A DNA stretch of 34,843 bases, taken from NCBI GenBank assembly GCA_007693845.1, contig RECV01000129.1, positions 1 through 34,843 of the forward strand, given 5' to 3'. Position 1 is the first letter of the stretch. The number at the start of each line of letters is the position of its first letter. The translations under genes were made by a program, and so were the position numbers. Shown here piece by piece: positions 1,317-34,843 of the stretch. Source of the DNA: Phycisphaerales bacterium. Lineage in GTDB: Bacteria > Planctomycetota > Phycisphaerae > Phycisphaerales > SM1A02. Under the pieces are notes generated by a model. That model did not search any database, was not told the origin of the DNA, and saw only the letters and a program-made list of their open reading frames with translations.

Positions 1317-4300
1317 ATGACCGGTTTCAAAGGGAATCGCAACCTGCTGGTGATCGGTGATGGGAGCATCCTCGGTGATGGTGATCGGTCTCAACTGCGG
1401 GCGGACGGCTGGCAGGTGACCGTCGTCACTCCCCTCAATGTGATGGGGTGGGATGTGATGGGGTGGGCGGCCGGAGCGTCCTGCCGCGGCCTGACGCAGG
1501 ATTCCGAATTCAGCCCGGGCGGGGTGGACGCTGGTACCTCTTGCGCCGATGAAGAATCCGGCGGGATGCCCGATGGGTTCCTGCCCGATGCGTTTCTGCC
1601 CGATGCGTTTCTGGTGGCTTGGCGCGCGAATGACCCTGCCACGCTCGAACTGATCGCAGCGCTTCGGCGTCGTGCGGCGGAGGGGGCGGGGGCGGCGGTT
1701 CCGATTCTCGTGCTCGCCGATCGAGTGGAAGCGAGCGATGCGGAGGCCGCAAGCGCCGCCGGCGCGGATGATCTTCTGATCGCGCCGCTGGCGGAGGGCG
1801 AACTCCGGATGAAGCTCCGTTTCGCATGCGCGAAGCGTCAGACTCCACCGGCTCAGACAGACGCCCGTTTAATCCCGGGACCAACGCAGGATCTCGGCCA
1901 GATGTTGGCGATCTTCTGCGCTCCGGGTGGGCACACAACATCCTGTTCCTACGTGTCAGATGAACTCTGCGCTCTGTTTGGCTATACCCCGGGTTCCATG
2001 CGCGAAGTCCACGGCAACCGGATACTGGAACTGATTCATGCTGATGACAGAGCGCGCGTCGTGGAGTCGACTTCGCGTTGCCCGGGGGTGGGCAACCGGT
2101 ACGAAGTGGAGTATCGCGTTCATGGGGCGCACCAGACTCTCAAATGGGTGCGGGAACGTGGAAGCTGGCGGTTTAATGAACAGCAACAGATGTGGGAAAG
2201 AGTGGGCTATCTCATAGACATCACGCATGAGAAAGAATTGAAGGAAGCTCTGCGGCGGGAGACTCAGCAACTGACTGAGCGCAAGAAAGAGATGAACGTG
2301 GTTCGGATGGTCTCAAACGCGCTGCAGTTGCCCGGTGCTTCAATCGAGACGAAGCTGGAACGCATTGCGGATATTCTGGTTTCCGGTTTCACTCGTCCGG
2401 ACCTGACGTCCATTCGGATTGAGTACGGCGATCGGTGGATCAACTCACGGTCCGATGCGGGCTCGCAGCGCGTCTTTTGCGAGACCTTTACGCTGCCCGG
2501 CGGTGTCCGGTTTGCGATCGAGGTTTCGTTCCACGCGCATTATGGAGATGCCCCATCGACAACGCCGTTTCTCGAAGAAGAACGCGAGATGGTGCGGTTC
2601 GTGGGCAATCTCATCCGCACCTGGATCCAACTGGCATTGTCGGAAGCATCGATACGGGAGAGCGAGCAACGATATCGTGTCTTGGCTGAGACAAGTCTCG
2701 ACATGATTTCGCTGCACAAGGCGGATGGCACGTACAGTTATGCCTCACCGGCCTGCCGCGAACTGCTTGGCCGCGAGCCGAACGATCTGGTCGGTCTCAA
2801 CCCATATGAGCTGGTTCATCCGGATGATCGAGAGATTGTGCGGGAGAGTCATGAACGGCTGCTTCGGCATGGGATGTCCACGCCGGTGACCTACCGATTG
2901 CGGCATGGCCGCGGTGACTATATCTGGGTTGAATCAACCACCAAGCGTCTGGAGGACCAGACCGACCGTATCGTCGTCGTCAGCCGTGATGTCTCCATTC
3001 GCAAGCTGACGGAAGATGCTCTGCGTGGAAGCGAAATGATGCTGCGCGACCAGCGCCTGGTGCTTCAGCAAATCATCGGGAACATTCCGCACGCCATTTG
3101 CTGGAAGGACCGCTACGGCCGATACCTGGGCGGGAACGACCGTTTCGCCGAACTGGTGGGCGTCAGCGACGGGCAGGCAATCATCGGTCGTGACGACTCG
3201 CAGTTGAACTGGCCGCAGGAACAGAGTGAACGCATCGGCCGGCTTGATAAGGAAGTGGTGAGAACGGGGACTCCACTTTTGGATCTCGAAGAACCCCTCG
3301 AAACCAATGATGGCAACACGCGGATCATGCTGACCAGCCGCGTGCCCTGGTCCGATGCGGATGGACAGGTCATCGGCCTCATCTGCATCCGGGCCGATAT
3401 CACCGATCGCAAGCGCAGCGAAGATGCGATGCGCGAGAGTGAGGCAAATTTGCACGCCATCACCTCGCAGCTTCCCGCCGTTCTCTGGACCACTGACCGC
3501 ATGCTGCACCTGCAATCACTGAACGGCGCGATGATCGGTTACTTCATCGATGATGCCGGGCAGATGATCGGGCGCCATGTGAATCGTTTGCTCGAGTACT
3601 GTTCAAATGATGGCGCAGGAGCCGTGCAACAGGCGCACGAGCGAGCGTTGCTGGGCCAATCGGTCAGTCTTTCACAGAAGTGGGGCGAGCACGAGACGGA
3701 GATCTTCGTCGAGCCGCTGCATGATCAGGAAGGACAGGTTACCGGCTGTCTCACGTTGGTTCTCGATGTGACCGAGCGGAATCAGGCCCGCCTTTCTGAG
3801 CGTGAACGCGAACACATGCGCGAGGCGATCGCCGCGATGGAACAGGTTCTTGGCGTCATCGGTCACGAACTGCGGACGCCGCTCACCGGCCTCCGCGCGA
3901 TGTCCGAATTTCTGCTCAGCGATGTGACATCGCCCGAGCACGGGAACTTTCTTCGCAGTATCAACGAGGAAGTCGTGCGGATGTCCGGCATGGTCGACAG
4001 TCTCCTCGAAGCGGCACGGATCAACAGCGGCCGGGCCCAGTGGAATTGGACCGTCTGCTCGGTCCGAGAACTGGTCGAGGGCGCGGCGAGTCTCATTCAA
4101 TCGTTGATCGATCCGGATCGCGTCAGTCTGATCAGTCATGTCGAGTTGAAGTCCGATGAATTCGCAGGCGACTGTGATGCGGTCCATCGTCTCTTGGTGA
4201 ACCTGCTGAGCAATTCAGCCAAGCACACCACCGAAGGCAGGATCGAATTGTCTGCCCGTGAAAAGCAAGAGGATGGCGAGCGCTGGATTGAGTTCGTGGT

Positions 4301-4580
4301 TCGTGACGATGGAGGAGGTATTCCGCCTGAGACCGTCAAGAAGCTTGGCGAAGCATTTGCGCTGAACTCGGGGGTCATCGGCACGAGCCATGTTCGTGGA
4401 AGTGGATTGGGGCTGTCGATCTGCCGCGGCATTGTGCACGCCCACGGCGGACGAATCAGTGTGGATTCAACGGTCGGTGTAGGAACAACGTTCACGGTTC
4501 AAATCAGGGCAGATCTTCCCGGGCCGGTGAAAGCGTCGGCCGATATCTGCCCGATCGAGTATGAGGGTCAACATGTCTAA
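1317..4580 (+). CDS. Multi-PAS sensor histidine kinase with an N-terminal degenerate receiver domain
   Basis: This is a 1087-aa kinase starting at ATG 1317, chosen because AAGGTGG (1303-1309) lies 7 nt upstream; the frame is open further back, to 1218. Domains in order: a receiver-like fold (about 8-180), a PAS domain (about 194-303), a GAF-like region (about 328-441), three more PAS domains (about 451-561, 583-697 and 711-820), a dimerisation/phosphoacceptor domain with GHELRTPLTGL (phospho-acceptor His850), and an ATPase domain with the N box LLVNLLSNSAKHT, the G1 box DDGGGIP and the G2 box GSGLGLSI. No transmembrane segment is seen, so it is probably a cytoplasmic sensor. The receiver-like part has LVAWRAND where the phosphorylated Asp should be, so it is probably not phosphorylated. 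The stop overlaps the start of the next gene, a receiver-HDOD protein that is the likely partner. The signal is unknown. Confidence 0.9.
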   Translation: MTGFKGNRNLLVIGDGSILGDGDRSQLRADGWQVTVVTPLNVMGWDVMGWAAGASCRGLTQDSEFSPGGVDAGTSCADEESGGMPDGFLPDAFLPDAFLVAWRANDPATLELIAALRRRAAEGAGAAVPILVLADRVEASDAEAASAAGADDLLIAPLAEGELRMKLRFACAKRQTPPAQTDARLIPGPTQDLGQMLAIFCAPGGHTTSCSYVSDELCALFGYTPGSMREVHGNRILELIHADDRARVVESTSRCPGVGNRYEVEYRVHGAHQTLKWVRERGSWRFNEQQQMWERVGYLIDITHEKELKEALRRETQQLTERKKEMNVVRMVSNALQLPGASIETKLERIADILVSGFTRPDLTSIRIEYGDRWINSRSDAGSQRVFCETFTLPGGVRFAIEVSFHAHYGDAPSTTPFLEEEREMVRFVGNLIRTWIQLALSEASIRESEQRYRVLAETSLDMISLHKADGTYSYASPACRELLGREPNDLVGLNPYELVHPDDREIVRESHERLLRHGMSTPVTYRLRHGRGDYIWVESTTKRLEDQTDRIVVVSRDVSIRKLTEDALRGSEMMLRDQRLVLQQIIGNIPHAICWKDRYGRYLGGNDRFAELVGVSDGQAIIGRDDSQLNWPQEQSERIGRLDKEVVRTGTPLLDLEEPLETNDGNTRIMLTSRVPWSDADGQVIGLICIRADITDRKRSEDAMRESEANLHAITSQLPAVLWTTDRMLHLQSLNGAMIGYFIDDAGQMIGRHVNRLLEYCSNDGAGAVQQAHERALLGQSVSLSQKWGEHETEIFVEPLHDQEGQVTGCLTLVLDVTERNQARLSEREREHMREAIAAMEQVLGVIGHELRTPLTGLRAMSEFLLSDVTSPEHGNFLRSINEEVVRMSGMVDSLLEAARINSGRAQWNWTVCSVRELVEGAASLIQSLIDPDRVSLISHVELKSDEFAGDCDAVHRLLVNLLSNSAKHTTEGRIELSAREKQEDGERWIEFVVRDDGGGIPPETVKKLGEAFALNSGVIGTSHVRGSGLGLSICRGIVHAHGGRISVDSTVGVGTTFTVQIRADLPGPVKASADICPIEYEGQHV
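1438..1467 (+). repeat. Perfect 15-nt tandem duplication inside the kinase gene
   Basis: ATGTGATGGGGTGGG occurs twice, head to tail (1438-1452 and 1453-1467). It keeps the frame and duplicates five residues in the degenerate receiver domain, giving the run VMGWDVMGWA. The unit length of five codons is the same as in the second repeat about 100 nt downstream. Confidence 0.9.
1569..1613 (+). repeat. Three tandem 15-nt units inside the kinase gene
   Basis: Three head-to-tail copies of CCCGATGCGTTTCTG are present (1569-1583, 1584-1598 and 1599-1613). The first differs at two positions. They encode PDGFL-PDAFL-PDAFL just before the place where the receiver phospho-Asp strand is expected, so the third beta strand of the domain seems to have been duplicated in frame. 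Confidence 0.9.
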
Positions 4581-6459
4581 GATCATGATCGTCGAGGACT
4601 CTGCCGTCATCAGTCAGCCCATTGCCGCCACGCTCAAGCGGGAAGGGTACGACGCCGTGATCGCGGAACACGGGCAGGACGCGATTACGAAGCTGGCGGA
4701 CGGTTTGCCGGATGTCATCTTGCTTGATCTCGCCATGCCGGTCATGGACGGATTGACCTTCCTGAAGACGATTCGCGCCAACAGCCGGACGAAGGCCGTG
4801 CCGGTTATCGTGCTGTCCGCGGTCACTGAGAAGCCGAAGATCGTCCACGCGGTCAAGCTCGGCATTCAATCGTACCTGCTCAAGAGCCGATTCTCGCTGC
4901 AGGAATTGCTGCAACAGATTGAAGCGTGCATTCAGGGAAAGGCGAGCATCAAACCGGCGGCGGCCCAGCCCGCGACGCCCGCTCCGGTGGCGGCCAGTCC
5001 GCCCGCTGCCCAGGTTGCTGTTGAGAAGCCCGTCGGCAATGACGCCGCGCCATCCCCGGCCGCGAACATCGCATCGTCCGCCGTCCCGACTGATAGCGCG
5101 GCACCGACGAATCCGGTCGCAGCTCAAGTGCTACAGGATCCCGTTGAGGCGTTGAAATCGATCAAGCCGCTGATGACCCGGTCGGAAGTCATGGCACAAA
5201 TCGAATCGAATGCCGAACTGAAGGGGATGTCGCCGGCCGTGACGCAAGTGCTCAAGCTGACCGGCAATTCCCGGTGTTCGATTGAGCAAGTCGCCAAAGC
5301 GATCAGCACCGACCACGGGATGGCGCTCAAGATTCTCAAGCTCGCCAACTCAGCAGTGTATACGCGCGGCGAGCCGGTCGATTCCATCCAAATGGCGGTC
5401 ATGCGGATCGGACTGGATCAGATTCGGCAGACCGTGCTCAACATCGCGGTGGTCGAGCAGTTCAGCTCAAACAAAGTCGGTGGAATTGACATCGGACAGT
5501 TCTGGGAGCACGCCATCGCGACCGGATTCATTGCATCCGAATTGGCTTTTTCGCGGCAGGACAAGGACATTGACAGCGCGTTCACGATGGGACTGCTGCA
5601 CGACATCGGCCGGGTGTTCTTTGCCGATCAGTTCGGAGAGATCTACCAGCAGGTTCTGGAAACCGCGGAGAAACTTCAACTGCCGGTGGAACAGGTTGAA
5701 GCGCGCATGCTGCTCTACACCCACGCGGATGTCATGGACCGCATTCTGCACGGCTGGAAGTTCCCGAAACAGCTCATCAACCCGGTCGTGTTCCACCACC
5801 TCTCGGCGGGGAACATTCGCCGCAGTGCGCCGCGCGAAGTGACGGAAGTCGCTTCACTCGGACTGGCCAACCGCCTCGCGCACGCCATGATGCTTGGAAG
5901 CAGCGGCAACGAGACGATCTATCCGATTCACGATCTCTGCGAACTGTTGAAGCTCGACCCGAAAGTGCTGACCACGATTCGCGGCAAGGTGCGCGATGAG
6001 TGCGACAAGGTCAAATTCGCGTTACTGGCCAACGCGAACATGGGTGCGTGGACACCGTTGCGGCAGATGCACCAGGAAGAAATGCAGACCGAGTTCAGAC
6101 CGCTCTTTGCCAGCTCGGTGCCTGGATTCGATTCCTATGGGATCTTCTGCGAAGAACTTGCCGCCACGCCGTTTGCCGATGAGGAAGCGGAGGCGGAGAA
6201 GCCGAATATCGGGGTGATCCATATCTCCAACGCGCGGGAGCGCGTGGCGGTCACAAGTGCGTATCGCGCGGCGGAGAGTCAGGCGGGGGTCTCCGGACTT
6301 CCGCTGATCATTCTGTCGCCGGCGGGCAAGCTGATGCCGGAGTCTTCGTTGGTCAATGGGCGCCGGGTCCAGTCGCTCTCGACCCCGTTCCGGATTGCCC
6401 GGTTCATTGATGCGGTCAATCGGCTGGCCGAATCGGCCGATCAACAGAAGGCGGCCTGA
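4573..6459 (+). CDS. Response regulator with HDOD output domain
   Basis: A 628-aa protein. The start at ATG 4573 is preferred over ATG 4561 because GAGGG (4563-4567) is 5 nt upstream and the protein then begins MSKIMIVEDSAVISQP, a standard receiver start. Residues 1-120 are a receiver domain with acidic ED near the start, phospho-acceptor Asp52 in ILLDLAMPVMDG, and LSA and K farther on. An Ala/Pro-rich linker (about 130-195) leads to an HDOD domain (about 205-410) that keeps an HD pair (His343-Asp344 in LLHDIGRVFF). The last about 90 residues look like the second half of another receiver (LPLIILSPAGK, then SLSTPFRIARFIDAVNRL). HDOD proteins take part in signalling; their enzymatic activity is usually unproven. 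The gene begins inside the last codons of the kinase gene (ATGTCTAA), which suggests translational coupling and a shared phosphorelay. Confidence 0.9.
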   Translation: MSKIMIVEDSAVISQPIAATLKREGYDAVIAEHGQDAITKLADGLPDVILLDLAMPVMDGLTFLKTIRANSRTKAVPVIVLSAVTEKPKIVHAVKLGIQSYLLKSRFSLQELLQQIEACIQGKASIKPAAAQPATPAPVAASPPAAQVAVEKPVGNDAAPSPAANIASSAVPTDSAAPTNPVAAQVLQDPVEALKSIKPLMTRSEVMAQIESNAELKGMSPAVTQVLKLTGNSRCSIEQVAKAISTDHGMALKILKLANSAVYTRGEPVDSIQMAVMRIGLDQIRQTVLNIAVVEQFSSNKVGGIDIGQFWEHAIATGFIASELAFSRQDKDIDSAFTMGLLHDIGRVFFADQFGEIYQQVLETAEKLQLPVEQVEARMLLYTHADVMDRILHGWKFPKQLINPVVFHHLSAGNIRRSAPREVTEVASLGLANRLAHAMMLGSSGNETIYPIHDLCELLKLDPKVLTTIRGKVRDECDKVKFALLANANMGAWTPLRQMHQEEMQTEFRPLFASSVPGFDSYGIFCEELAATPFADEEAEAEKPNIGVIHISNARERVAVTSAYRAAESQAGVSGLPLIILSPAGKLMPESSLVNGRRVQSLSTPFRIARFIDAVNRLAESADQQKAA

Positions 6460-6510
6460 TGTGTCCGGTCGGCTGAACCGAATCGAAATCCGGAGCGGTC
6501 GGTCCGGTGA

Positions 6511-6541
6511 TTGCGCAAGCTTGTTTGCCTTGGCCTATCAT
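6511..6541 (+). promoter_or_regulatory. Possible promoter for pdhA
   Basis: TTGCGC (6511-6516) and TATCAT (6536-6541) are separated by 19 nt, in the 166-bp gap before pdhA. The -35 is poor and the spacer long, so this is only a candidate. A GGAGG at 6577-6581 lies downstream of it but has no start codon at a proper distance. Confidence 0.3.
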
Positions 6542-6625
6542 GTCGGGATTCGCAACCGCGGTTCTGGATGAGCCGCGGAGGTAATCGTTTCGAACTCTTT
6601 CTGTTTGTTCAGGATGCCGTCACTG

Positions 6626-7759
6626 ATGACGACCGCCACGCAACCCCAGGCCGAGGAAAATCTGGCTGCCAAGCTGCCGCCGGACACGCTCCAGCAGTGG
6701 CTGCGCGACATGCTGCTGATCCGCGAATTCGAGGTCCGCACCATGCAGGCCTACCAGGACCGCAAGATCGGCGGCTTCTGCCACGTGTATATCGGGCAGG
6801 AAGCCGTTGCCGTCGGCTGCACCGCCGCCGTCGAACACAAGGACCCCATCATCACCGCCTACCGGGATCACGGTCACGCCCTCGCGCGAGGAATGGATCC
6901 ACGCTACGCCATGGCGGAGATGTACGGCAAGATCGGCGGCTGCGCCAAGGGCAAGGGCGGCTCCATGCACCTCTTTGACAAACCGAACAACATGTTCGGC
7001 GGGCACGGCATCGTCGGCGCTCAGTGTCCGCTCGGCACCGGGCTTGCCTTTGCCACCAAGTACGAAGATGAAGTCATGAAAGGCGGGACGAACACCCGTG
7101 TCACGCTCTGTTTCCTCGGTGACGGCGCACTGAATCAGGGTGCCTTTCACGAAGCGATGAACCTCGCCGGCATTCTCGATCTGCCAATCATCTTCATCTG
7201 CGAGAACAACGGGTACTCGATGGGCACCGCCATCAGCCGCGGCACGACCATGGGGCATAACATCACCAGCAAGGCCGCTGGCTACGGCATGGAAAGCGCG
7301 ATCATCGACGGCATGGACATCTTTACCGTCTACAACGGCATGAAGCCGCTCGTCGACCGTTGCCGCGATACCAGCCGTCCCATCTTCGTTGACATGCGCA
7401 CCTATCGGTACAAAGGGCACTCGATGTCCGATCCCCGGAAGTACCGCACGAAGGAAGAAGAACAGCAGTACGAATCGAACGACGTCATTGACAAGCTGGC
7501 CAACTGGCTCATGCAGGAAGGCCATCTGACGGAAGATGCATACGACAAGCTGGTCAAAGAGATCCGCAAGGAGGTTCGTGCGTCGATGAAGTGGGCGGAC
7601 AACTCGCCCGAGCCGGACATCAAGGAGTTGTACACCGATGTCTTCGTTGAAGAGTGGGGGCCGTTCCTGGGAACGAGTCCGCCCCAGATCGTGAAGGATG
7701 CGGAAGGGGCGGGGAATGATGAAGATGATGATGAAACGCGCGAGGATGACGATGATTGA
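6626..7759 (+). CDS. pdhA: Pyruvate dehydrogenase E1 component, alpha subunit
   Basis: A 377-aa E1 alpha subunit of the alpha2-beta2 type, which decarboxylates pyruvate with thiamine diphosphate and passes the acetyl group to the E2 lipoyl arm. The thiamine-diphosphate motif is clear: GDGALNQGAFHEAMNLAGI, then IFICENNGYSMGT, as are FCHVYIGQEAVAVG and the YRYKGHSMSDPRKYR loop near the active site. I place the start at ATG 6626 (MTTATQPQAEE) with AGGA 11 nt upstream. ATG 6614 and TTG 6605 are in frame and cannot be excluded, as no start has a good ribosome site. The C-terminus is a run of acidic residues (DEDDDETREDDDD) that is not part of the usual fold. It is followed by pdhB and pdhC on the same strand. 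The beta subunit next door supports pyruvate dehydrogenase over a lone relative; branched-chain or acetoin substrates are less likely alternatives. Confidence 0.95.
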   Translation: MTTATQPQAEENLAAKLPPDTLQQWLRDMLLIREFEVRTMQAYQDRKIGGFCHVYIGQEAVAVGCTAAVEHKDPIITAYRDHGHALARGMDPRYAMAEMYGKIGGCAKGKGGSMHLFDKPNNMFGGHGIVGAQCPLGTGLAFATKYEDEVMKGGTNTRVTLCFLGDGALNQGAFHEAMNLAGILDLPIIFICENNGYSMGTAISRGTTMGHNITSKAAGYGMESAIIDGMDIFTVYNGMKPLVDRCRDTSRPIFVDMRTYRYKGHSMSDPRKYRTKEEEQQYESNDVIDKLANWLMQEGHLTEDAYDKLVKEIRKEVRASMKWADNSPEPDIKELYTDVFVEEWGPFLGTSPPQIVKDAEGAGNDEDDDETREDDDD

Positions 7760-20687: not shown

Positions 20688-20778
20688 GGAAACAATCGGC
20701 ACCGTCAGGCGTCTTTCCTGAGAACCTGATCGTCTGGTGCTGGTTTCAGTGTCGCCTCTCATTCCGGAAGGACCGACC

Positions 20779-22494
20779 ATGCACGAAATTCGTCAACTGC
20801 TTCGCATCGCGGCCCGTCGGCTTGAACTCGGCCAATTCCTGAAGCACCTCCATCTGGTCGCCCTTGTTTTGGCTTCGGCGACCGTGGTGCTCATGCTGCT
20901 GGATCGGCTTCGCGCGGAAACCGTTCTGCCGTGGGCGTGGCTGCTGCCCGTCATGATCGGGGCCGGACTGCTTGTCGCGCTGATGCTTTGGAGCCGGTCG
21001 CGGCCCAGTGAATTGCACGTGGCGGTGCAGGTTGATGAGCGGTTGGACCTGCGCGAAAAGCTGACCACCGCGCTTCAGGTGGCGGATCGCGATGATCCCT
21101 TCGCCCGCGCAGCGATCGAAGATGCCGTGCGCACTGCCAGCGACCCGCGGGTGCGCGAAACCGCGAAACGCCGGTTCAACGTTGCCGCGCCTTCCGGCTG
21201 GTGGGCGAGCCCCGCCCTGATCTTCCTCGCGATGGTGGTTTCGTTTCTTCAGCCGATGAATCTGTTCGAGCGTGAGCAGCCGGAAGATCCCGCCGTCACG
21301 CAGGCCCGCCATGAAGTCCGTGAAACGCTCGATGCGGTCATGAAAACGATCGAGGAATATCCGGAGTTGAGCGGTGAACTGTCCGATCTGCTCGGCGAAC
21401 TTACAAAGGACGGCACCGATCCGGATGCGCTTCGCCGGCCGGAAGACGTCCGCCGTGATGCGCTTCGCAGAATGAGCGATCTCAATCAGCGACTGGAAGA
21501 CATTCTCGGCGGGGAGAAGGGCAAGACCGCCGAAGCCCTCGAACGGTCCATGAAGAATCTGAAGCTTCCCGAAGACGGGCCGGCCAAGGAATTCGCCGAA
21601 GCGCTCGCGCAGGGCGACTTCAAACAGGCGAGAGAAGCGCTTCAGGACCTGATGGAACAGCTCAAGGGCGATGAACTGACGCCCGAGCAGCAGCAGCAAA
21701 TGCAGGAACAACTCGCCCAACTCGGCGAACAGCTCGAACAGATGGCCCAGCAGCAGGAGCAACTCGAAGAGGCCCTGCGCGATGCCGGCATGGATCCGCA
21801 ACTCGCTCAAAATCCCGAAGCGCTGCAGCGCGCCATCGAGCAGAATCAGAATCTCAACGAACAGCAGCGCCAACAGTTGCAACAAATGGCACAGGCGCAA
21901 CAGCAGGCCAACCAGATGTGCCAGAACCTCGCGCAGGCGATGCAGGACATGGCCCAGGCGATGCAGGGCATGGACGGCGAGGCCGGCGAAGGCGCCGGAC
22001 AGGCCGGGGAAGCCGCGATGGACGCCCTCGCGCAGATGGAGATGTTGCAGCAGATGCTCGATCAGGCGCAGGCCGCCGCCGAAGCGTGCCGCGGCAGTTG
22101 CCAGGGACTCGGTCAGGGACTCGGCATGTCGCAGGACTGGTTGCGAGCGATGGGGCAGGGGATGGGCGATCGGTCAGATCAGGGCAGCGCCGGTTCACGA
22201 CCCTCCGCGCCCACCCCCACGCGCACCCGAAAAGTCAGGGCCGAGGGCGAAACCGGCGAGGGGGACATCATCGCCCGCATGCTCGTCGACGGACCGCAGG
22301 TCGTCGGTGAATCACACATCAATCCCCGGCAGATCGTCGTGGAAACCGTCGAAGGCCTCGAGCAGGCGATCGAAGAGGAGCGTGTGCCCAGACGGTATCA
22401 CGAAGCGATGAAGCATTACTTCGGTGAACTGGATCGACAGACCCGCACCGTCGCGGAAGGCGACGCCCCGGCGTCTGCCGCGAACGAAGATTGA
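20779..22494 (+). CDS. Membrane-anchored Gln-rich coiled-coil protein, DUF4175-like
   Basis: A 571-aa protein with start ATG 20779; GGAAGGA lies 6 nt upstream. Two hydrophobic segments near the N-terminus (LVALVLASATVVLMLLDRL and LLPVMIGAGLLVALMLW) are followed by a short domain (VQVDERLDLREKLTTALQVA), a third hydrophobic stretch (ALIFLAMVVSFLQPMNLF), and then about 300 residues of long helix rich in Gln, Glu, Met and Ala, e.g. EQQQQMQEQLAQLGEQLEQM. A Pro/Thr/Arg stretch and a C-terminal domain (VPRRYHEAMKHYFGELDRQT) follow. The order resembles the DUF4175-type proteins that accompany MoxR/VWA loci; the resemblance is from memory of architecture, not an alignment. The position upstream of such a locus supports it. 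Three cysteines occur in the coiled part, in QMCQ and EACRGSC. The function is unknown. Confidence 0.75.
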   Translation: MHEIRQLLRIAARRLELGQFLKHLHLVALVLASATVVLMLLDRLRAETVLPWAWLLPVMIGAGLLVALMLWSRSRPSELHVAVQVDERLDLREKLTTALQVADRDDPFARAAIEDAVRTASDPRVRETAKRRFNVAAPSGWWASPALIFLAMVVSFLQPMNLFEREQPEDPAVTQARHEVRETLDAVMKTIEEYPELSGELSDLLGELTKDGTDPDALRRPEDVRRDALRRMSDLNQRLEDILGGEKGKTAEALERSMKNLKLPEDGPAKEFAEALAQGDFKQAREALQDLMEQLKGDELTPEQQQQMQEQLAQLGEQLEQMAQQQEQLEEALRDAGMDPQLAQNPEALQRAIEQNQNLNEQQRQQLQQMAQAQQQANQMCQNLAQAMQDMAQAMQGMDGEAGEGAGQAGEAAMDALAQMEMLQQMLDQAQAAAEACRGSCQGLGQGLGMSQDWLRAMGQGMGDRSDQGSAGSRPSAPTPTRTRKVRAEGETGEGDIIARMLVDGPQVVGESHINPRQIVVETVEGLEQAIEEERVPRRYHEAMKHYFGELDRQTRTVAEGDAPASAANED

Positions 22495-22551
22495 ATCAGC
22501 CGGGGGTATGGCGTGACCGGTGTGCACTGTTCTCAACAAGGATTCGTGTCC

Positions 22552-23613
22552 ATGTGTGTTTCTCATGGAAAGCCGCGACTGCTCTGGTGCGCGGTGGTGC
22601 TGTTGGCGTGCCTGCCCTTCCTGAACGGCTGCGGCGAAAAGGGCGAGGAAGTCATTGTCTACATCTCCGCGGATGAGTACGTGGCGCGCGAAGTCGTCCG
22701 CGCGTTCGAAGATGAGACCGGAATTCGCGTCCGGTTCGTGGGCGACACGGAAGCGCAGAAGACCACCGGACTCGTTGAGCGTCTCCGCGCGGAGCGCGAC
22801 AACCCACAGGCCGATGCGTTCTGGTCCTCGGAGGTTTTCCTGACCATCGCGCTGGCCGACGAGGGCGTGCTTACACCCTATGAATCACCGATCGCCATCG
22901 ACTGGCCCGAAACCTTCCGCGATGCGAACTCGTACTGGTACGGTCTCGCCGCACGGGGACGGGTGATCGTGTACGCGCCGGACCGCGTGCCGGAGGCGCA
23001 TCGGCCGCGCACGTGGCAGGATCTGACCAATGAGCGTTTCCGCGGCCGGATCGTCATGGCTGACCCACGTTTCGGGACGACGGGCGGACACTTTGCCGCC
23101 AAGAAGGTTTTCTGGGGCGATGAAGTGTACACCGAGTTTCTTCACGGTCTCGCCGCGAACGAAACGCGCCTGCTTGCCAGCGGTAACGCGGGTGTGGTCC
23201 GCGCGGTTGCCGACGGTGAAGCGGATGTCGGTATGACGGACACCGATGATGTCTGGGCCGCACAGGCGCAAGGGCTCAACGTCGAACTGATTTTTCCTGA
23301 TCACGCTGAGGGTGATGAGCGATCCACCGGCATCGGGACATTGCTGATTCCGAACACGGTCGCGATCGTGGCGGGAGGGCCGAAGCCCGAGAATGCCGCG
23401 GCATTCGTGGACTTCATGCTCGCCGGTCAGGCCGAACGGATTCTTGCGGAAACCGTGTCCGGCAACACGCCCGTTCGTCCGGGGCTCGCTGCGGAGTATC
23501 CCGATTCGGACATTCCCGATCCGCTCGCCGTCGATTTCCACGAAGTGGCCGCCGCCTTTGAAGACGCGGTCAGCCAAGCGATGCGCATTTTGCGCGATGG
23601 TGAAGAACGGTGA
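22552..23613 (+). CDS. ABC transporter substrate-binding lipoprotein, ferric-binding-like family
   Basis: A 353-aa lipoprotein starting at ATG 22552, with AAGGA 9 nt upstream. The signal peptide PRLLWCAVVLLACLPFLNGC ends in lipobox LNGC. The mature part follows the family of iron-type binding proteins (FbpA/FutA-like): VIVYISADEYVAREVVRAFE, FEDETGIRVRFVGDTEAQKT, ADAFWSSEVFLTIALADEGV, then GRIVMADPRFGTTGGHFAAK and GNAGVVRAVADGEADVGMTD. Ferric-binding members have a Tyr-Tyr pair after the GE-xx-VG motif; here it reads TDTDD, so the usual iron site is missing and the substrate is uncertain. The permease gene follows after 54 nt. No ATPase subunit gene is in the window. Confidence 0.85.
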   Translation: MCVSHGKPRLLWCAVVLLACLPFLNGCGEKGEEVIVYISADEYVAREVVRAFEDETGIRVRFVGDTEAQKTTGLVERLRAERDNPQADAFWSSEVFLTIALADEGVLTPYESPIAIDWPETFRDANSYWYGLAARGRVIVYAPDRVPEAHRPRTWQDLTNERFRGRIVMADPRFGTTGGHFAAKKVFWGDEVYTEFLHGLAANETRLLASGNAGVVRAVADGEADVGMTDTDDVWAAQAQGLNVELIFPDHAEGDERSTGIGTLLIPNTVAIVAGGPKPENAAAFVDFMLAGQAERILAETVSGNTPVRPGLAAEYPDSDIPDPLAVDFHEVAAAFEDAVSQAMRILRDGEER

Positions 23614-23667
23614 AGCGATCCGAGCGGTCAATGCGCTTCGGGCCGGCATGATCTACCATAACCCCCG

Positions 23668-26244
23668 ATGAAGCAGGCCCGCGATTCCGACGAACGGATT
23701 GTTGCCGGGCGGATCGGCCATCCGCTCGGGCGCTGCCTGCCGCCACTCCTGCCGAGTTTGGCGATTGGGTTGTTTCTCCTTGCGGGCGTCCTTCCCCTGG
23801 CGGGCGCGGTGGAAGTTCTTCTGACGCAGCCGGGCTCGGGCTACGAAGCTCGCTCGCCATGGCAACTGCTGGCGACGAGCACGTATTGGGCAGGCCTTGT
23901 CGCGCTGCTCGCGGTGGTGATCGGCTGGGCCCCGGGGCGCTGGCTGGGCAGTCTGGTCCAACGCGGCGGCTTCATCCCACTGGCGGTCTTTCTACTGGTG
24001 CCGATCTGTCTGCCGGCGTACGTGATCTTCTTTGCGTGGTGGCAGTCCTGGCCGGCGGATACGTGGCTGTACCGCTGGGCGGTGGAGCACCAGCAGGTGC
24101 AACTGGTGCGTCACCTTACGCTGCTGCTCGGCATGACGTGCTGGTCGTGGCCGATCGTGAGCTGGTGCGTGGCGGCGTCGATGATGCAGACGCCCGCTCA
24201 GCGCGAGGAACTGCTCGCGATCGACGGCGTCTCGCGAATCGGGCGCGCGATCGACCGCTTCCGCCGTGACCGCAGCATGCTCACGCTGGGCGGATTGATC
24301 GTCTTTATTGCAACCTTCAACAACGTCACGTGTTTCGACCTCGCGGAGATTTTTACAGTCGGCAACGAGCTGCGCGCGATGAAGGCGACCGGGGCGAATG
24401 AGCGCGATGTGCTCGTGGCGGCGTTGCCCGCCGCCGGACTGACCATGTTTGGCGCGATCTTGATCTGGATCATGCTCGGTTCGACGCGCCGCCACGGTGA
24501 GTCGGCGGTGCGCGCCGCAGCCGCCGGATGGTCCGCTCGGGTGTGGACCGTTGTCCTCTGGACGATTTCGGTGGCGATCCCGCTCGGCCTGCTCGCGCGG
24601 AATCTCTGGCAGAGCCCCGGCGGCCGGACGCCCGCCATGCAGTGGCGCGAGTTCACCAGTTTCTACGGCACGGGACTGATGAACACGGTCATCATCGCGC
24701 TGATCACGGCCTCCTGCGCTGTGGTGATCGCGATGGGGCTGGCGTGGATGTGGCAGGATCGTCGCGCATGGGTGCGCGGCCTCGCGCACGCTCAGGCGAT
24801 CGTCTGGTTGATCCTGGCCGCGGTGCCCGGGTCACTCATCGGGGTCGCGCTGATCGCAACGTACAACCGCCCGATCGCATTCGCCGGTGCGGGGGTGGAT
24901 GAACTGATCTACCGTTCGCCGGCGATCCTCATCCTGGGGCATGTCGCGCGGTATGCGTTTCTGGGCGCCCTGTTCGGGCGATGGATGGCGATCCGCGAGC
25001 CGCGATCGATCGTGGAACTGCGGGCGATGGATGGCGCACGCCGGCTCCCCGCGTGGTGGCGCTCCGCGCGGCCGCGTATCATGGCAATGTGCGCAGCGAC
25101 CTTCGCGATCGTGTTGGTCATGTCGCTGAGCGAGATTCCTGTGACCGCCATGGTCCGGCCCCCCGGGTTTGACGCCATTACGACGAGCATCCTGAACGAC
25201 ATGCACTTTCAGCGGCCGCAAACGGTCATGTTCGCCACCGGTATCTTCTTCATGCTTGCGCTGATCGCGGCGTGCGTGACCGCACTGCTTTGGCGGCCGA
25301 CACGACGCGTGTTCCGGGTTGTCTCCGTCAGCATGCTCGCGATCGGCATGATGCTCGTGCTACCCGGTTGCGGCGAGATTGACCCGGAGAACGTGGACCC
25401 GCTGCGCACCGAGATGACCTTCGGCATTGCCGGCCGCGCGCTCGGGCAGTTCAACTATCCGCGCTCGATCGACATCGATTACGACCGTGAGGTAATCTAT
25501 ATCGTGGATCGCTCCGGTCGTGTGCAGCGATTCGATATGGAGGGCAATCCGCAGAAGGCGTGGACCTTGCCGGATTTCGAACTCGGCCAGCCGACGGGAA
25601 TCACCGTGGATGATCAGGGCCGGGTGATTCTGGCGGATACGCATTACTACCGCGTGCTGATCTTCGATCACGATGGCAACGAACTGCTTCGGTTCGGAGA
25701 GTACGGATTCGACGAAGGGCAGTTCCTGTACACAACGCGCGTCGGTGTCGGGCCGGAAGGCAAGCTGTACGTCGGGGAAACGGGTGGCAACGATCGCATT
25801 CAGGTCTTCAGCCCGGACGGCGAGTTCCTGTTCAGTTTCGGGCAGTTCGGTGCCGGGGAGGGTGAACTCAGCCGGCCGCAGGGCATGGCGTTCAACCGCG
25901 AAAAGACGCGCCTCTACGTCGCGGATGCGTGTAACCACCGGATCGCGGTCTACGAGCCGGACGGCACGCTGCTTCGCTACATCGGCGAGCCGGGCCGCGG
26001 TTTGGGACAGTTGTCCTACCCGTACGATGTGCTGGTGCTGGAGGATGAATCGTTGCTGGTCGTCGAGTTCCACAACAACCGACTTCAGAAGTTCCGCAAG
26101 GACGGCACGCCGGTCGGACTCTACGGCCGCATCGGGTTTCGCGATGGCGAAGTGCAGTATCCGTGGTCGGTGGCGGGAAATCTCGATCGCATCTACGTGG
26201 TGGATTCGGGCAACAATCGTGTGCAGCGGGCGCGAACGCCGTGA
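23668..26244 (+). CDS. ABC permease (two-domain, FbpB-like) fused to an NHL beta-propeller
   Basis: An uninterrupted 858-aa frame from ATG 23668. Residues about 25-540 are a two-unit permease of the FbpB kind with about 12 membrane helices; the ATPase-docking loops read EELLAIDGVSRIGRAIDRFR and VELRAMDGARRLPAWWRSA. Residues 548-568, VFRVVSVSMLAIGMMLVLPG then Cys568, look exactly like a lipoprotein signal peptide with lipobox LPGC. Residues about 580-857 contain six NHL-type repeats (RSGRVQRFDMEGN, NDRIQVFSPDGE, CNHRIAVYEPDGT, NNRLQKFRKDGT among them), enough for one propeller. GTG 25309 and ATG 25333 could be internal starts for a separate NHL lipoprotein, but neither has a ribosome site, and there is no stop between the parts. 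The partner is the binding protein just upstream. The start has no Shine-Dalgarno site. Confidence 0.85.
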   Translation: MKQARDSDERIVAGRIGHPLGRCLPPLLPSLAIGLFLLAGVLPLAGAVEVLLTQPGSGYEARSPWQLLATSTYWAGLVALLAVVIGWAPGRWLGSLVQRGGFIPLAVFLLVPICLPAYVIFFAWWQSWPADTWLYRWAVEHQQVQLVRHLTLLLGMTCWSWPIVSWCVAASMMQTPAQREELLAIDGVSRIGRAIDRFRRDRSMLTLGGLIVFIATFNNVTCFDLAEIFTVGNELRAMKATGANERDVLVAALPAAGLTMFGAILIWIMLGSTRRHGESAVRAAAAGWSARVWTVVLWTISVAIPLGLLARNLWQSPGGRTPAMQWREFTSFYGTGLMNTVIIALITASCAVVIAMGLAWMWQDRRAWVRGLAHAQAIVWLILAAVPGSLIGVALIATYNRPIAFAGAGVDELIYRSPAILILGHVARYAFLGALFGRWMAIREPRSIVELRAMDGARRLPAWWRSARPRIMAMCAATFAIVLVMSLSEIPVTAMVRPPGFDAITTSILNDMHFQRPQTVMFATGIFFMLALIAACVTALLWRPTRRVFRVVSVSMLAIGMMLVLPGCGEIDPENVDPLRTEMTFGIAGRALGQFNYPRSIDIDYDREVIYIVDRSGRVQRFDMEGNPQKAWTLPDFELGQPTGITVDDQGRVILADTHYYRVLIFDHDGNELLRFGEYGFDEGQFLYTTRVGVGPEGKLYVGETGGNDRIQVFSPDGEFLFSFGQFGAGEGELSRPQGMAFNREKTRLYVADACNHRIAVYEPDGTLLRYIGEPGRGLGQLSYPYDVLVLEDESLLVVEFHNNRLQKFRKDGTPVGLYGRIGFRDGEVQYPWSVAGNLDRIYVVDSGNNRVQRARTP

Positions 26245-26438: not shown

Positions 26439-29400
26439 ATGGACGGAGGATTGCCGCTTCAGTTTGAACAGCCGCTCGGGCTGCTGTTGTTGCTGCTGAT
26501 TATTCCGGCGCTTCTGATCGCCCGGCGGAGCGTGGGGATGCAGTCGCCCGTGCGCGCGACGGTGATCTTTTTCTTTCGCGTCCTCGTGATCCTGCTGATC
26601 ACCGCGGCCCTGGCCCATCCGAACTGGGAACAGCGGGGGGAAGGACTGACCGTTACGGTGGTCCTGGACCGCAGCCATTCGATCCCGATGCGATTGCGCG
26701 ATCGCGCGGAGCAGTTTCTGCGTGAGGCCAGTGAGCACCGTGAACCGGAGGACCGTCTCGGCTCGATCATCGTGGGCCGCGATGCAACGATCACCGCGAT
26801 GCCCGATCGGCTCTCTGCCGTCACCAGCGGGCTCGACGATGTGGATCGCAGCGCGACGAACCTCGCAGGGGGACTGCGTCTCGCGCTGGCCATCGCGCCG
26901 GACGATACCGCGAACCGGATCGTGATCGCTTCTGACGGCAACGAGACAATCGATTCAGTGTTGTCAGCGGCGGAACTGGCGCGCGCGAACAACGTGCCGG
27001 TCGATGTTCTCCCGCTGGAATTCAGCTACGAGAACGAAGTGCTCTTCGAGCGGATCATGGCGCCGGCCCGGGCACGGAAAGGGCAGACCGTCAACGTGCG
27101 CATGGTGCTGCGCAGTCAGCGCGAAGCGTCCGGCATGATCTACTTGCGCAAAAATGACGAGCCGCTTGATCTGGACCCCGATGAACCGGGGATGGGCCGG
27201 CACGTTGAGCTGTCACCCGGCGTGTCGGTGTTCCCCGTGACGATCCGGCTGGATGACCCCGGCCCCGCGCAATTCAGCGCGACCTTTGAGCCCGACTCCT
27301 CGGATATGGACACGCTGCCCCAGAACAACCACGCGATGGCGGTGACGTTCGTGGCCGGCGAAGGGCGCATCCTCGTGCTTGATGATTCGGAAATCGAATC
27401 CGCGAATCTCGTGCGCGCACTGCAGGAAAGCGATCTGGCGGTCGATGTCGAACCGCCGCAGGCATTGGCGGGAGGGCTGGTCTTTCTCAGCGCGTACGAT
27501 GCGGTCATTCTCGCCAACGTGCCACGCTGGGCGTTTGACGATGAGCAGGATCGCATGCTGCACGCGTACGTTCACGATCTTGGGGGCGGCCTGATCATGC
27601 TTGGCGGGCCGGAATCCTTCGGTGCCGGCGGATGGATTGACTCTGAAACCGCGCGAGTCTTGCCCGTGCGTCTGGACCCGCCGCAGACGCGACAGATGCC
27701 GCGCGGCGCGCTCACGCTGGTCATGCACTCCTGCGAAATGCCGCAGGGCAATTACTGGGGACAGGAAGTCGCCCGCGCGGCGATCAACGCGCTGAGCCGG
27801 CAGGACTATATCGGCATCGTCGAGTACGACTGGCGCGTGCGCGATAATCAGGGCGCGACCTGGGCGTTTCCGATTCAGGTAGCCGGGAACAAGCAGGCCG
27901 CCATCGCCGCGACCCGGCAACTGGTGGTCGGCGACACCAAGGACTTCGGCCCGCTCCTGCGCATCACGCATGAGGGCATGCAACCGCTCCGCGCCGGCCA
28001 GAAGCATGTCATCATCATTTCCGACGGCGACCCCCAGCCGCCCCCGCCATCACTCCTTCGCCAATTCGTGCAGGATAAGATCACCATCACCACCGTCATG
28101 GTCATCGGCCACGGCAGCGAGGCGGATCGGCAGAAGATGCGCGCGATTGCGGAGACGACCGGCGGTCGGTTCTATCACATCATGAACCCGAACCAACTGC
28201 CGCAGATCTTCATCAAGGAAGCGCAGCTTGTTTCCCGATCACTGATTCAGGAAGGTGAGCTCTTTCAGCCGCAGGTGGTCAGCCGCCTGCCCGGCCCGGT
28301 GGAAGGATACGACGCCGTGCCGGCCGTGGATGGATACGTGCTGACCGCCATGCGCGAAGGATTGAGCCAGACGCCGATTGTTCTCGCGACCAGCGAAGGT
28401 GAGGATCCGATCTTCGCGCACTGGAATTACGGCCTCGGCAAATCGCTGGCGTATACCTCCGACGTGATGGGCCGGTGGGGTGAGCGCTGGGCGACCTGGG
28501 CGGAGTTCAAGGCGTTCTGGACGCAGGCCGTTCGCTGGTCGATGCGGCCGAGTTCGCCGGCCAACTTCAACATCAACACGCGGGTCGATGGCGATCGGGC
28601 CGTGGTCGAAGTCGAGGCGCTCGATACCGATGCGTCGTTCCTCAACTTTCTGCGCATGCGGGCTGCAATGATCCAGCCCGACGGCAGCGCTGAGCCGCTG
28701 ACCTTGCAACAGGTCGGCCCCGGGCGCTATCGCGGTGAGTTCGAGATCAGCGATGAAGGCGCGTATCTGATCAATGTCAACTACGCCGCCGGCGCGGATG
28801 AAGAAAGCCAGGGCAATCTGCAGGCGGCGGTGACGGTGCCGTATTCGCAGGAGTATCGCGCCGTTTCGCACAATGCGGCACTGTTGCGTCAACTGGCGGA
28901 GATGACCGGCGGGCGGGTGTTGTCCGCGACGGCGAATCCGGCCGACGCATTGCTCTACGACCGGGCCGCGCTCGAAGTGCCCCGAAGCCCGAAGGCGATC
29001 TGGGATCTGCTGGCGATCCTCGCCGCGATTCTGTTCCTGTTCGATGTCGCCTCACGACGGCTGGCGATTGACGGCGCGAAGGTTCTCGCCGCGATGCGGA
29101 GCGCGGTCGGCCGACGTGATGAGGTGCAGGGCAGCACGGTTGAAGCGTGGAAAAAGGCGCGCGGCCAGGTCTCGCACCGTAAACCGACAGCGGAGAAGAA
29201 GGACGCGGACGCGCCGGATGGTTCCGCGCGATTTGAGGCGAGCGATGAAGACGCCGCCAGCGCGATCGACGTCGGTGCGGCAGAGTCGGCCGGCAAGGGC
29301 AAGTCCGACCCGAACGCGCCGTCCAAGCCGCAATCGAAACCCGCCGACACGCCGCAGCAGGATGAAGGCGAGTACACCTCTCGTCTGCTTGCCGCGAAAC

Positions 29401-29465
29401 GACGCGCCCAGCAGCAGAAGGAAAAGGGCAAGGATGCTGATGGCAGCGGGGGAGGGAACACGTGA
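26439..29465 (+). CDS. Large membrane VWA / glutamine-amidotransferase-like protein
   Basis: A 1008-aa protein starting at ATG 26439 with GGGAG 6 nt upstream. Two N-terminal membrane helices (LGLLLLLLIIPALLIA, VIFFFRVLVILLITAALA) are followed by a VWA domain with metal site Asp77-Arg-Ser-His-Ser81, Thr in SATNLAGGL and ASDGNE. Next is a class I glutamine-amidotransferase-like part (YDAVILANVPRW, DLGGGLIMLGGPESFGAGGW) without an evident catalytic Cys. A second VWA-like region starts LTLVMHSCEM, where the metal-binding Asp is missing, but keeps IIISDGD. A beta-rich region, a C-terminal helix (IWDLLAILAAILFLFDVASR) and a Lys/Asp/Ala-rich tail end the protein. This layout is known from planctomycete MoxR/VWA loci. 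Its stop overlaps the start of the moxR gene (GTGA). A TACTAT at 26376-26381 may be a -10. Confidence 0.88.
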   Translation: MDGGLPLQFEQPLGLLLLLLIIPALLIARRSVGMQSPVRATVIFFFRVLVILLITAALAHPNWEQRGEGLTVTVVLDRSHSIPMRLRDRAEQFLREASEHREPEDRLGSIIVGRDATITAMPDRLSAVTSGLDDVDRSATNLAGGLRLALAIAPDDTANRIVIASDGNETIDSVLSAAELARANNVPVDVLPLEFSYENEVLFERIMAPARARKGQTVNVRMVLRSQREASGMIYLRKNDEPLDLDPDEPGMGRHVELSPGVSVFPVTIRLDDPGPAQFSATFEPDSSDMDTLPQNNHAMAVTFVAGEGRILVLDDSEIESANLVRALQESDLAVDVEPPQALAGGLVFLSAYDAVILANVPRWAFDDEQDRMLHAYVHDLGGGLIMLGGPESFGAGGWIDSETARVLPVRLDPPQTRQMPRGALTLVMHSCEMPQGNYWGQEVARAAINALSRQDYIGIVEYDWRVRDNQGATWAFPIQVAGNKQAAIAATRQLVVGDTKDFGPLLRITHEGMQPLRAGQKHVIIISDGDPQPPPPSLLRQFVQDKITITTVMVIGHGSEADRQKMRAIAETTGGRFYHIMNPNQLPQIFIKEAQLVSRSLIQEGELFQPQVVSRLPGPVEGYDAVPAVDGYVLTAMREGLSQTPIVLATSEGEDPIFAHWNYGLGKSLAYTSDVMGRWGERWATWAEFKAFWTQAVRWSMRPSSPANFNINTRVDGDRAVVEVEALDTDASFLNFLRMRAAMIQPDGSAEPLTLQQVGPGRYRGEFEISDEGAYLINVNYAAGADEESQGNLQAAVTVPYSQEYRAVSHNAALLRQLAEMTGGRVLSATANPADALLYDRAALEVPRSPKAIWDLLAILAAILFLFDVASRRLAIDGAKVLAAMRSAVGRRDEVQGSTVEAWKKARGQVSHRKPTAEKKDADAPDGSARFEASDEDAASAIDVGAAESAGKGKSDPNAPSKPQSKPADTPQQDEGEYTSRLLAAKRRAQQQKEKGKDADGSGGGNT

Positions 29466-30523
29466 CGATGACGGTGGCGGCGGACTTCTCCAAAATCAGT
29501 GCAGCGCTGGGAACCTCGTTCAATGACATTGACTCGGCGAAACGCGCGTGCGCTTCGTTCCGGGAGGTTTATGCCGAACTACGCCGCGCGGTCGGCGAGA
29601 TCATCGTCGGTCAGGAGACGATCGTCGAGCAGGCCTTGATCGCGCTCTTTGCCGATGGTCATATTCTGCTTGAAGGCGTGCCGGGACTGGGCAAGACGCT
29701 GCTCGTGAGCACGCTCGGGCGCGTCTTGAGTCTGCCTTACGCGCGGATTCAGTTCACGCCGGACATCATGCCGGCTGACATCACCGGCACCAGCATCGTG
29801 ATCGACGATGAGAAGACCGGCAAGCGCACGTTCGAGTTTCGTCCCGGGCCGATCTTTCACCAACTCGTGCTCGCTGATGAAATCAACCGCGCCACGCCCA
29901 AGAGTCAGGCGGCCCTGCTGGAAGCCATGCAGGAACGTTCGGTGACGACGGCCGGGCAGACGCATCCGCTCGTGCGGCCGTTTTTCGTGATGGCGACCCA
30001 GAACCCGGTCGAGCAGGAGGGGACGTACCCGCTGCCGGAGGCGCAGCTCGATCGGTTCCTTTTCAAGATCGTTGTGCCGTACACCGACCGTCAGGAACTG
30101 AACACGATTCTCGAACGTACCACGCGGAATCGTGAAGTTGACCTGCAGCCGGTTCTGGATGGTGCGTCGATTATGCACGCCCAACGTTTGGCGCGGCGGA
30201 TCGTCGTCGCGCCGCAGGTGCAGGATTACATCATCCGGCTGGTGCTCTCGACGCATCCGACCGGGCCGCTCATTTCGGAAGAGCTGAAGACGTTCATTCG
30301 CGTCGGCGTGAGTCCGCGCGGCGCGCAGTCGTTGATCTCGGCCGCCAAGGTCAAGGCCCTCATCGACGGCCGATACGCGATCGCGATTCGTGATGTGCAC
30401 GAGATCGCTCGTGCGGCACTTCGACATCGGATCGTTCGAACGTTCGAAGCTGAGGCGGAGAACGTCACGCCGGACGATATCATTGAGAAACTGATCCGCC
30501 ACGTTCCCCGTGAAGCGGACTGA
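29462..30523 (+). CDS. moxR: MoxR-family AAA+ ATPase
   Basis: A 353-aa AAA+ ATPase. GTG 29462 is preferred since GGAGGG (29451-29456) is 5 nt upstream and the GTG overlaps the stop of the VWA gene (GTGA); ATG 29468 is possible. Walker A is GVPGLGKT with Lys78, Walker B is LVLADEINRA with Asp139-Glu140, sensor 1 is MATQNPVEQEGTYPLPEAQLDRF, and the C-terminal helical lid follows with sensor 2 near VSPRGAQSLI. MoxR proteins work with VWA proteins as chaperones in metal insertion, complex maturation or envelope stress; the client here is unknown. DUF58 and a second VWA protein follow directly. Confidence 0.97.
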   Translation: MTMTVAADFSKISAALGTSFNDIDSAKRACASFREVYAELRRAVGEIIVGQETIVEQALIALFADGHILLEGVPGLGKTLLVSTLGRVLSLPYARIQFTPDIMPADITGTSIVIDDEKTGKRTFEFRPGPIFHQLVLADEINRATPKSQAALLEAMQERSVTTAGQTHPLVRPFFVMATQNPVEQEGTYPLPEAQLDRFLFKIVVPYTDRQELNTILERTTRNREVDLQPVLDGASIMHAQRLARRIVVAPQVQDYIIRLVLSTHPTGPLISEELKTFIRVGVSPRGAQSLISAAKVKALIDGRYAIAIRDVHEIARAALRHRIVRTFEAEAENVTPDDIIEKLIRHVPREAD

Positions 30524-33629: not shown

Positions 33630-34843
33630 TCAGTCGCATGAACCCCAGTTCTCGAGGAGCAGCAGCAGATCAAAGACGTTGACCGTGCCATCATCATTGA
33701 GGTCAGCGGCGCAGCCGGGGCAGGCGCCCCAGTTCTCGAGCAATTGCAGCAGATCGAACACGTTCACCGTGAAGTCGTCATTCAGATCGCCGGTGCAGGT
33801 CGGGGCTGGTTCCTCGCAGATATCCGCGGTACCGCTGCCGGTGGTGTCGTCACAGTTTGTGCCGGGACCGGCCCAGCTTCCCGCGACGTTGATGCAGCTT
33901 TGCTCGGTCAGACCGATGCAGCTTCCATTGCTGAGGCAGCAGGCGCCTTGTGGTTGCGGGCAACTCGTAGACTCACAGGTCGAGCTATTGCCCTGGAAAG
34001 ATCCGTCGAGGTCTTCGCATTCTTCGGGGCTCACCTCATCGACACAGCTTCCATCGGGGAGGCAGCATGACCCGCTGGGGAAGCAGACGATGTCATTGCA
34101 CTGAACGCCTGCGCCCTGCCAGATGCCGTCGACGATATCGCAGATTTCCTCGGTGAACTGATCGCACGCGCCGGTGACTTCAATGCAGCATGCGCCGACC
34201 GGATCGCCACAGGCATCGTTGGAACAATCTGTTCCGGAGCCGAGCCAGGTGCCGCCCTCGTTGATGCAGAAGGCTTGGGGGACCGGCGTTTCGCAGGAGT
34301 CATCATCGTAGCAGCAGGCGCCAAAGAGGTTGATGCAGTTCACGCTGGAACAGGGCACATCTTCGCCGAGGAACAGACCCTGTTGCGCTGCACATTGACT
34401 TTCGGTCAGCACCTCGCAGAAGCCGGCGGGGAGACAGCATCCGCCGCTTACCGGGGGTGTGCAGGAGAGCGAAGTGTAAGTCGCGCGCATCACCCAGTCG
34501 CCGGAGGGGGCGCAGGAAATGCCAAACGGGCCGGTGAAGTTCTGGAAGGAGCTGAAGCCGGGCGCACACCCGAATGAGCCGCAATCAATTGCAAAAATCC
34601 AGTTGAGAGTCGGCTGGCTGAGCCCGACCGTCTCCGGATCTGTGGCTGGAAACGCATTCGAGGCGGGCGGCGGCGAGCTCAGGCAGCCATTGCCCGACTG
34701 GTTGTTGTGCTTGTCGATCCGGTAGCCGATCGAGAACGCATTGTCCGGATTGGCGAGCACGAAGATCTGATCCGGATCGCCCGGATCAACGGCAACTTGA
34801 ACATTGACCCCGCTCGTGCCGGGCGGCAACTGAATGTGCGGGA
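33630..34843 (-). CDS. Secreted Cys-rich repeat protein with dockerin-like C-terminus (5' end cut by the window edge)
   Basis: The minus-strand frame is open to the right edge (PHIQLPPGTSGVN at the edge), so the N-terminus and any signal peptide are outside; TTG 34829 need not be the start. The visible 400+ residues start with a segment of an unknown domain (VAVDPGDPDQIFVLANPDNA). Then come five Cys-rich modules of about 40 residues, each starting G-x-C-C and with Cys at similar spacing. The C-terminus has two calcium-binding, dockerin-like repeats (DLNDDFTVNVFDLLQLLENW and DLNDDGTVNVFDLLLLLENW). Such an ending is common on exported Phycisphaerae-type proteins, possibly as an anchoring or sorting signal, which is inference. 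It is not close to a cellulosome gene. The function is unknown. Confidence 0.85.
   Translation of the reverse strand, partial: PHIQLPPGTSGVNVQVAVDPGDPDQIFVLANPDNAFSIGYRIDKHNNQSGNGCLSSPPPASNAFPATDPETVGLSQPTLNWIFAIDCGSFGCAPGFSSFQNFTGPFGISCAPSGDWVMRATYTSLSCTPPVSGGCCLPAGFCEVLTESQCAAQQGLFLGEDVPCSSVNCINLFGACCYDDDSCETPVPQAFCINEGGTWLGSGTDCSNDACGDPVGACCIEVTGACDQFTEEICDIVDGIWQGAGVQCNDIVCFPSGSCCLPDGSCVDEVSPEECEDLDGSFQGNSSTCESTSCPQPQGACCLSNGSCIGLTEQSCINVAGSWAGPGTNCDDTTGSGTADICEEPAPTCTGDLNDDFTVNVFDLLQLLENWGACPGCAADLNDDGTVNVFDLLLLLENWGSCD
33636..33791 (-). repeat. Pair of dockerin-like Ca-binding repeats
   Basis: Two copies of (D)LNDDxTVNVFDLLxLLENWG, 29 residues apart, each with Asp/Asn at the calcium-ligand positions of an EF-hand-like loop. 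They form the protein's C-terminus before GSCD and stop. Confidence 0.85.
33816..34445 (-). repeat. Five Cys-rich coding modules
   Basis: Modules begin GGCCLPAGFC, GACCYDDDSC, GACCIEVTGAC, GSCCLPDGSC and GACCLSNGSC, each followed by Cys about 8-10, 20-25 and 25-30 residues on, with a Gly-x-(Trp/Phe)-x-Gly-x-x-x-x-Cys part. The last module is degenerate at its end. Six Cys per module suggest disulphide bonding outside the cell. Confidence 0.85.

Follow-up and report, generated by a model that had tools for sequence, protein, structure and literature searches.

The window, as the whole analysed stretch of 34,843 nucleotides is called here, comes from a bacterium of the order Phycisphaerales and carries a gene cluster in which an importer-type permease and an NHL propeller share one reading frame. 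This frame (23668-26244, forward strand) is translated into 858 amino acids without an internal stop. Its parts and the genes that flank it are listed below.

20737-22494: 585-residue glutamine-rich membrane protein; conserved upstream gene of the cluster, without a Pfam match

22513-23613, forward strand: extracellular solute-binding protein with a lipoprotein-like signal (...PFLNGC); SBP_bac_8, E 6.3e-20; conserved upstream neighbour

23668-25308, forward strand: FbpB-like permease part of an ABC importer; residues 1-547, with 12 transmembrane helices and a C-terminal basic cytoplasmic stretch, RPTRR

25309-25371, forward strand: internal lipoprotein-type signal, a predicted 13th helix or signal peptide; residues 548-568, VFRVVSVSMLAIGMMLVLPGC, with the lipobox LPGC

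25369-25371, forward strand: TGC codon of Cys568, the predicted lipidation residue and +1 position of the predicted signal peptidase II (SPase II) cut; cysteine in 136 of 136 fused homologs

25369-26241, forward strand: predicted mature product, a linker and a six-bladed NHL propeller; residues 568-858

26439-29465, forward strand: vWA-domain membrane protein, the most constant neighbour of the propeller across the phylum

29462-30523, forward strand: AAA ATPase of the MoxR type, a further member of this conserved cluster

In the family to which the window belongs, the conserved gene order is the 585-residue protein, the solute-binding protein, the permease/propeller, vWA, MoxR, DUF58 and a BatA-like gene. 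Towards the end of the window, on the reverse strand (33630-34829), lies a gene for a cysteine-rich repeat protein that has two dockerin-like repeats, GDLNDDFTVNVFDLLQLLENWG and ADLNDDGTVNVFDLLLLLENWG, at its C-terminus.

The permease half is of the FbpB type by its fold and by sequence similarity at the profile level. The first-pass annotation had described a 12-helix FbpB-like permease, and this description is backed by two comparisons. A profile of 28 homologs matched the iron ABC transporter permease of T. thermophilus (9j4r_A) over nearly the full length (E 7.5e-14), and the AF2 model of the permease was aligned by Foldseek with the same chain of FbpBC (TMt 0.76). It was only through the homolog profile that 9j4r_A was reached, as a phmmer search of the PDB with the permease sequence alone gave no match. 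With E values of up to 1 allowed, BPD_transp_1 (PF00528) is absent from the Pfam families listed for these 28 homologs, and the PF00528 matches across the genome do not include the permease-propeller protein; the window protein taken alone matches propeller families only. Within the alignment of the fused homologs, P387 and H513 are the sole columns of the permease half that are the same in all 136. By homology, ferric iron or some comparable small ligand is the probable substrate.

The second half of the protein is a propeller, and the six NHL repeats that had been read from its sequence are upheld by Pfam PF01436 (E 2.4e-26) and by a model with 24 strands, as is expected for six blades. The blades are modelled at a pLDDT of about 95, and the nearest folds found by Foldseek are the NHL domains of TRIM71/Thin. 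For the 858-residue protein as a whole, the AF2 model has a mean pLDDT of 86.7 and a pTM of 0.84. The joint, which lies between the two well-folded domains, is the stretch of lowest confidence in this model (about 48-58).

It was at this joint that a lipoprotein signal ending in LPGC had been noticed at residues 548-568, and this sequence observation is confirmed. Cys568 is invariant in the 136 fused homologs, a set that includes closely related genomes and whose members are not all independent. The residue at -1 is glycine, alanine or serine in 135 of them (G 99, A 24, S 12, N 1), and the -3 position is mostly L, I, M or V. In a smaller, diverse set of 56 fused homologs, which covers most of the genera found, both the cysteine and the small -1 residue are present in 56 of 56. 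The joint contains a small residue followed by cysteine, in line with the lipobox consensus of PMC9360617, and ahead of the cysteine a basic n-region and a short uncharged h-region. Position 547 is R or K in 124 of the 136 homologs, and the cysteine stands a median of 16 residues from the last charge (range 12-24, 56 homologs). C568 is also the sole invariant residue between H513 of the permease core and G589, where the invariant columns of the propeller begin. Other cysteines are far less conserved, the next best column reaching 78 of 136. The sequence around C568 drifts among these homologs, yet it stays hydrophobic up to the cysteine. In the translated chain of 858 residues this signal is not N-terminal; it becomes so only in relatives where the two halves are split.

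This layout was looked for in a scan of the window and the loci of its relatives, about 384 kb of neighbouring loci with 252 long frames. The pattern of a polytopic part, a basic stretch, an h-region, a lipobox and a soluble domain was found only in the permease-propeller fusion family. A second match to the pattern, at Cys537 of the stop-to-stop frame, sits within TM12 of the same window protein. As a separate observation, the NCBIfam model NF058595 was matched weakly over the last helix and the lipobox in six of 28 homologs (L004 and 27 aligned); the scores shown are 14.8 and 16.3 against a cut-off of 37 bits (alignment A1, residues 491-542 of the first row).

A continuous frame of this kind raises the question of an assembly or sequencing error that deleted a stop or a frameshift between two genes. 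The source genome is a draft of 303 contigs, and relatives with split genes do exist. Nevertheless, a match was found in 146 of the 181 genomes of the window's family, and 135 of these 146 carry the joint in a single open frame, as the window does over its 858 codons; those with the open joint include single-contig genomes and a congeneric genome that is 92% identical. An error of this kind is thus ruled out and its probability is negligible. The search of related genomes for a permease-NHL fusion, as the first-pass annotation had advised, therefore bears out its reading of a frame that runs from permease to propeller without a stop, and it excludes the artefact of a lost stop between two genes, an option raised there. 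It had also been held that close relatives with two separate genes would make the fusion an artefact. This rule fails: there are such relatives, but the fusion is genuine and occurs widely.

Two further families of Phycisphaerales also have the fusion, as do at least eight sister-family genomes; most genomes of this sister family with a match have two adjacent genes instead. Since the fusion is widespread and the two-gene form is common in the sister family, neither form is an artefact. Outside the order, one permease-propeller fusion was seen at locus L050 (G337:C144), with the lipobox ALAAGC and an assembly gap that interrupts the permease half.

The split relatives show what becomes of the signal when the two halves are encoded separately. 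In twelve split loci of the sister family, the propeller gene begins at or shortly after the stop of the permease gene, each time with a lipoprotein-type signal of its own that contains [GAS]C. Genome G005 belongs to the family of the window, and its permease and propeller genes overlap by ATGA; the propeller begins MTPSATINQPIPSRLGCRFVWFVLLVWTASC and its signal ends ...WTASC. In the propeller tree, G005 is nested inside the fused clade, and re-splitting has thus yielded a complete lipoprotein. For the order as a whole, the tree does not place either the fused or the split form as ancestral. The lipobox is likewise retained after separation in genome G025, where the propeller signal ends ...LLVVIAGC. 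At this locus (L109, G025:C61:72000-83000, positions 3414-7264), an insertion of about 4.5 kb parts the permease and propeller genes, both of which are intact; it carries genes on the opposite strand, frames of 827 and 178 residues among them.

Genome G568 has kept the permease but has no propeller at the locus: the gene that follows is vWA, and the permease ends without the lipobox cysteine. This permease (L110, G568:C46, about 916-2466, reverse strand) has a leftover hydrophobic tail and represents a natural loss of the propeller. As split propellers keep the lipobox and the G568 permease, in this one genome, lacks the cysteine, the cysteine tracks the propeller and not the permease. These relatives also bear on the idea that the joint signal is a functionless relict of gene fusion. 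Such an origin would suit the split forms, where a separate gene opens with the signal. A relict would drift, though, and the cysteine never varies among homologs of which most share 30-50% identity with the protein in the window. Fusions without it number 0 of 136, and it was lost where the propeller was missing, in G568. A relict is therefore highly improbable.

If the signal is functional, it could still serve in an uncut fusion, with the hydrophobic segment staying in place as a 13th helix, an anchor of the propeller to the permease, and the cysteine either lipidated without a cut or kept for another reason. The strong retention of the continuous frame is in keeping with this. Moreover, OpuA (OpuABC) offers an example of a substrate-binding domain fused to a permease, in which an anchoring helix of unconserved sequence stays uncut (PMC11065425). 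It is this lack of conservation that separates the two cases: the anchor and linker of OpuA vary even within the same order (PMC11065425), whereas the cysteine and the -1 residue are near-absolute here. Further, the segment is short for a helix at its median of 16 residues, and the same segment is a complete lipoprotein signal in the split relatives. An OpuA-like uncut anchor is thus disfavoured by the invariant cysteine with a small residue before it, and we regard an uncut fusion as unlikely.

Another route to a free propeller would be an internal translation start within the joint, by which the propeller is made as a normal lipoprotein, either alongside the fused chain or in its place. Most homologs have start codons in frame within the joint; in the window gene these are GTG and ATG codons, with a GTG at -20. 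The share of TTG among leucine codons is also somewhat raised at the joint (0.223 against 0.144). The other start codons do not follow: GTG makes up 0.451 of the valine codons in the n-region against 0.454 in the permease body, and ATG is not raised relative to TM12 (0.031 against 0.040). Between -13 and -35, 19 of the 136 fused homologs have no ATG or GTG, and eight of them, from eight genera, have no ATG, GTG or TTG. Since these eight lack a start codon where it would be needed, a second start is rejected as the general route, and we consider this explanation very unlikely. In the window's own genome, an internal start may operate, as its joint sequence is compatible with it.

The reading that we prefer is that of a polyprotein, which is probably inserted once, after which lipidation and a cut at C568 would yield the permease and the propeller lipoprotein as separate products. 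The cut at C568 is rated the most likely because of the invariant cysteine with its small -1 residue, the weakness of the alternatives and the fact that the genome encodes both enzymes required, LspA (PF01252, E 9.6e-29) and Lgt (PF01790, E 6.2e-56). To our knowledge, LspA substrates have N-terminal signals, and a signal placed after 12 helices is unusual. The single chain would start with the insertion of the 12-helix FbpB-like permease in the membrane, its last helix ending on the cytoplasmic side at the basic RPTRR. The short hydrophobic segment that follows would then act as a mid-chain lipoprotein signal peptide, and the propeller would be exported. Lgt would add diacylglyceryl to C568, and LspA, the SPase II, would cut between G567 and C568. 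Two products are predicted from this: a permease with the used signal peptide left at its C-terminus as a 13th helix, and an NHL propeller lipoprotein that is anchored to the membrane and equal in number to the permease. An SPase II polyprotein route had been put forward in the first-pass annotation. The invariant lipobox supports this route well; the cleavage, like the lipidation and the equal supply, is what we infer.

The gene neighbourhood suggests where the freed propeller may work. Outside the order, propellers of this family are mostly encoded as proteins of their own. Of 19 such loci, 13 have a vWA gene of this kind in the 1.5 kb flank, and two more have one within about 3 kb. The permease adjoins the propeller, or is fused to it, in only four of these loci. 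Thus, the vWA/MoxR cluster is the more constant partner of the propeller. It had been proposed that the propeller senses substrate beside the pore. As the vWA/MoxR cluster is a steadier neighbour than the permease, with the propeller usually separate across the phylum and near vWA/MoxR whether a permease is present or not, we do not favour a pore-side sensor. Once freed, the propeller most likely acts at the membrane together with the adjacent vWA/MoxR cluster and not as a fixed part of the pore, a partnership that we infer from gene order. In the Phycisphaerales loci examined, no ABC ATPase motif was found near the importer genes (22513-26244 in the window); two TOBE_2 ATPases are encoded elsewhere in the window's genome, on contigs C174 and C36.

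Taken together, we lean towards a conserved polyprotein that is matured by the lipoprotein signal peptidase, in which a cut at an internal lipobox would free a lipoprotein for the vWA/MoxR cluster in a fixed ratio to the permease across much of the order. Should the cleavage be confirmed, the reach of LspA and Lgt extends beyond N-termini to signals far inside a polytopic chain. Signal-peptide predictors based on the N-terminus would then miss such lipoproteins, and the lipoprotein counts for these bacteria would be too low. The fused, split and re-split forms within one order also allow the same two proteins to be compared directly as products of one gene or of two.

Our searches of the open-access literature gave no account of a transporter cut at an internal lipobox, and no direct precedent for an internal lipobox. 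The closest precedent known to us is the cytochrome b/c1 polyprotein FbcH (gene fbcH) of Bradyrhizobium japonicum, which is cut by signal peptidase I. In FbcH, one frame encodes a polytopic membrane protein followed by an exported one, and the internal signal peptide is cut after insertion. The same layout of a polytopic part, an internal signal and an exported part in one frame is present in the window. FbcH differs in that it involves signal peptidase I, no lipidation and a respiratory complex, whereas here an SPase II-type lipobox follows an ABC permease.

OpuA and similar ABC importers with a fused substrate-binding domain resemble the present protein in that a domain outside the cytoplasmic membrane is joined to an ABC permease via a hydrophobic helix. 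In OpuA, however, a substrate-binding domain is joined through a variable anchor, in contrast to the NHL propeller and invariant lipobox described here. The likeness to T. thermophilus FbpBC (9j4r) lies in the permease fold and profile-level sequence similarity; FbpBC has no propeller and was solved with its ATPase, whereas the cluster here has no ATPase gene. NF058595, the 'lipo-invert putative C-terminal anchoring domain', differs as well, since in the present protein a large domain comes after the lipobox and not the C-terminus. Finally, the other NHL propeller lipoproteins of Planctomycetota that are encoded beside vWA-MoxR-DUF58 belong to the same propeller family, have a lipobox in many cases and share the same downstream neighbours; they are encoded by separate genes, whereas the propeller of the window forms the second half of a permease gene.
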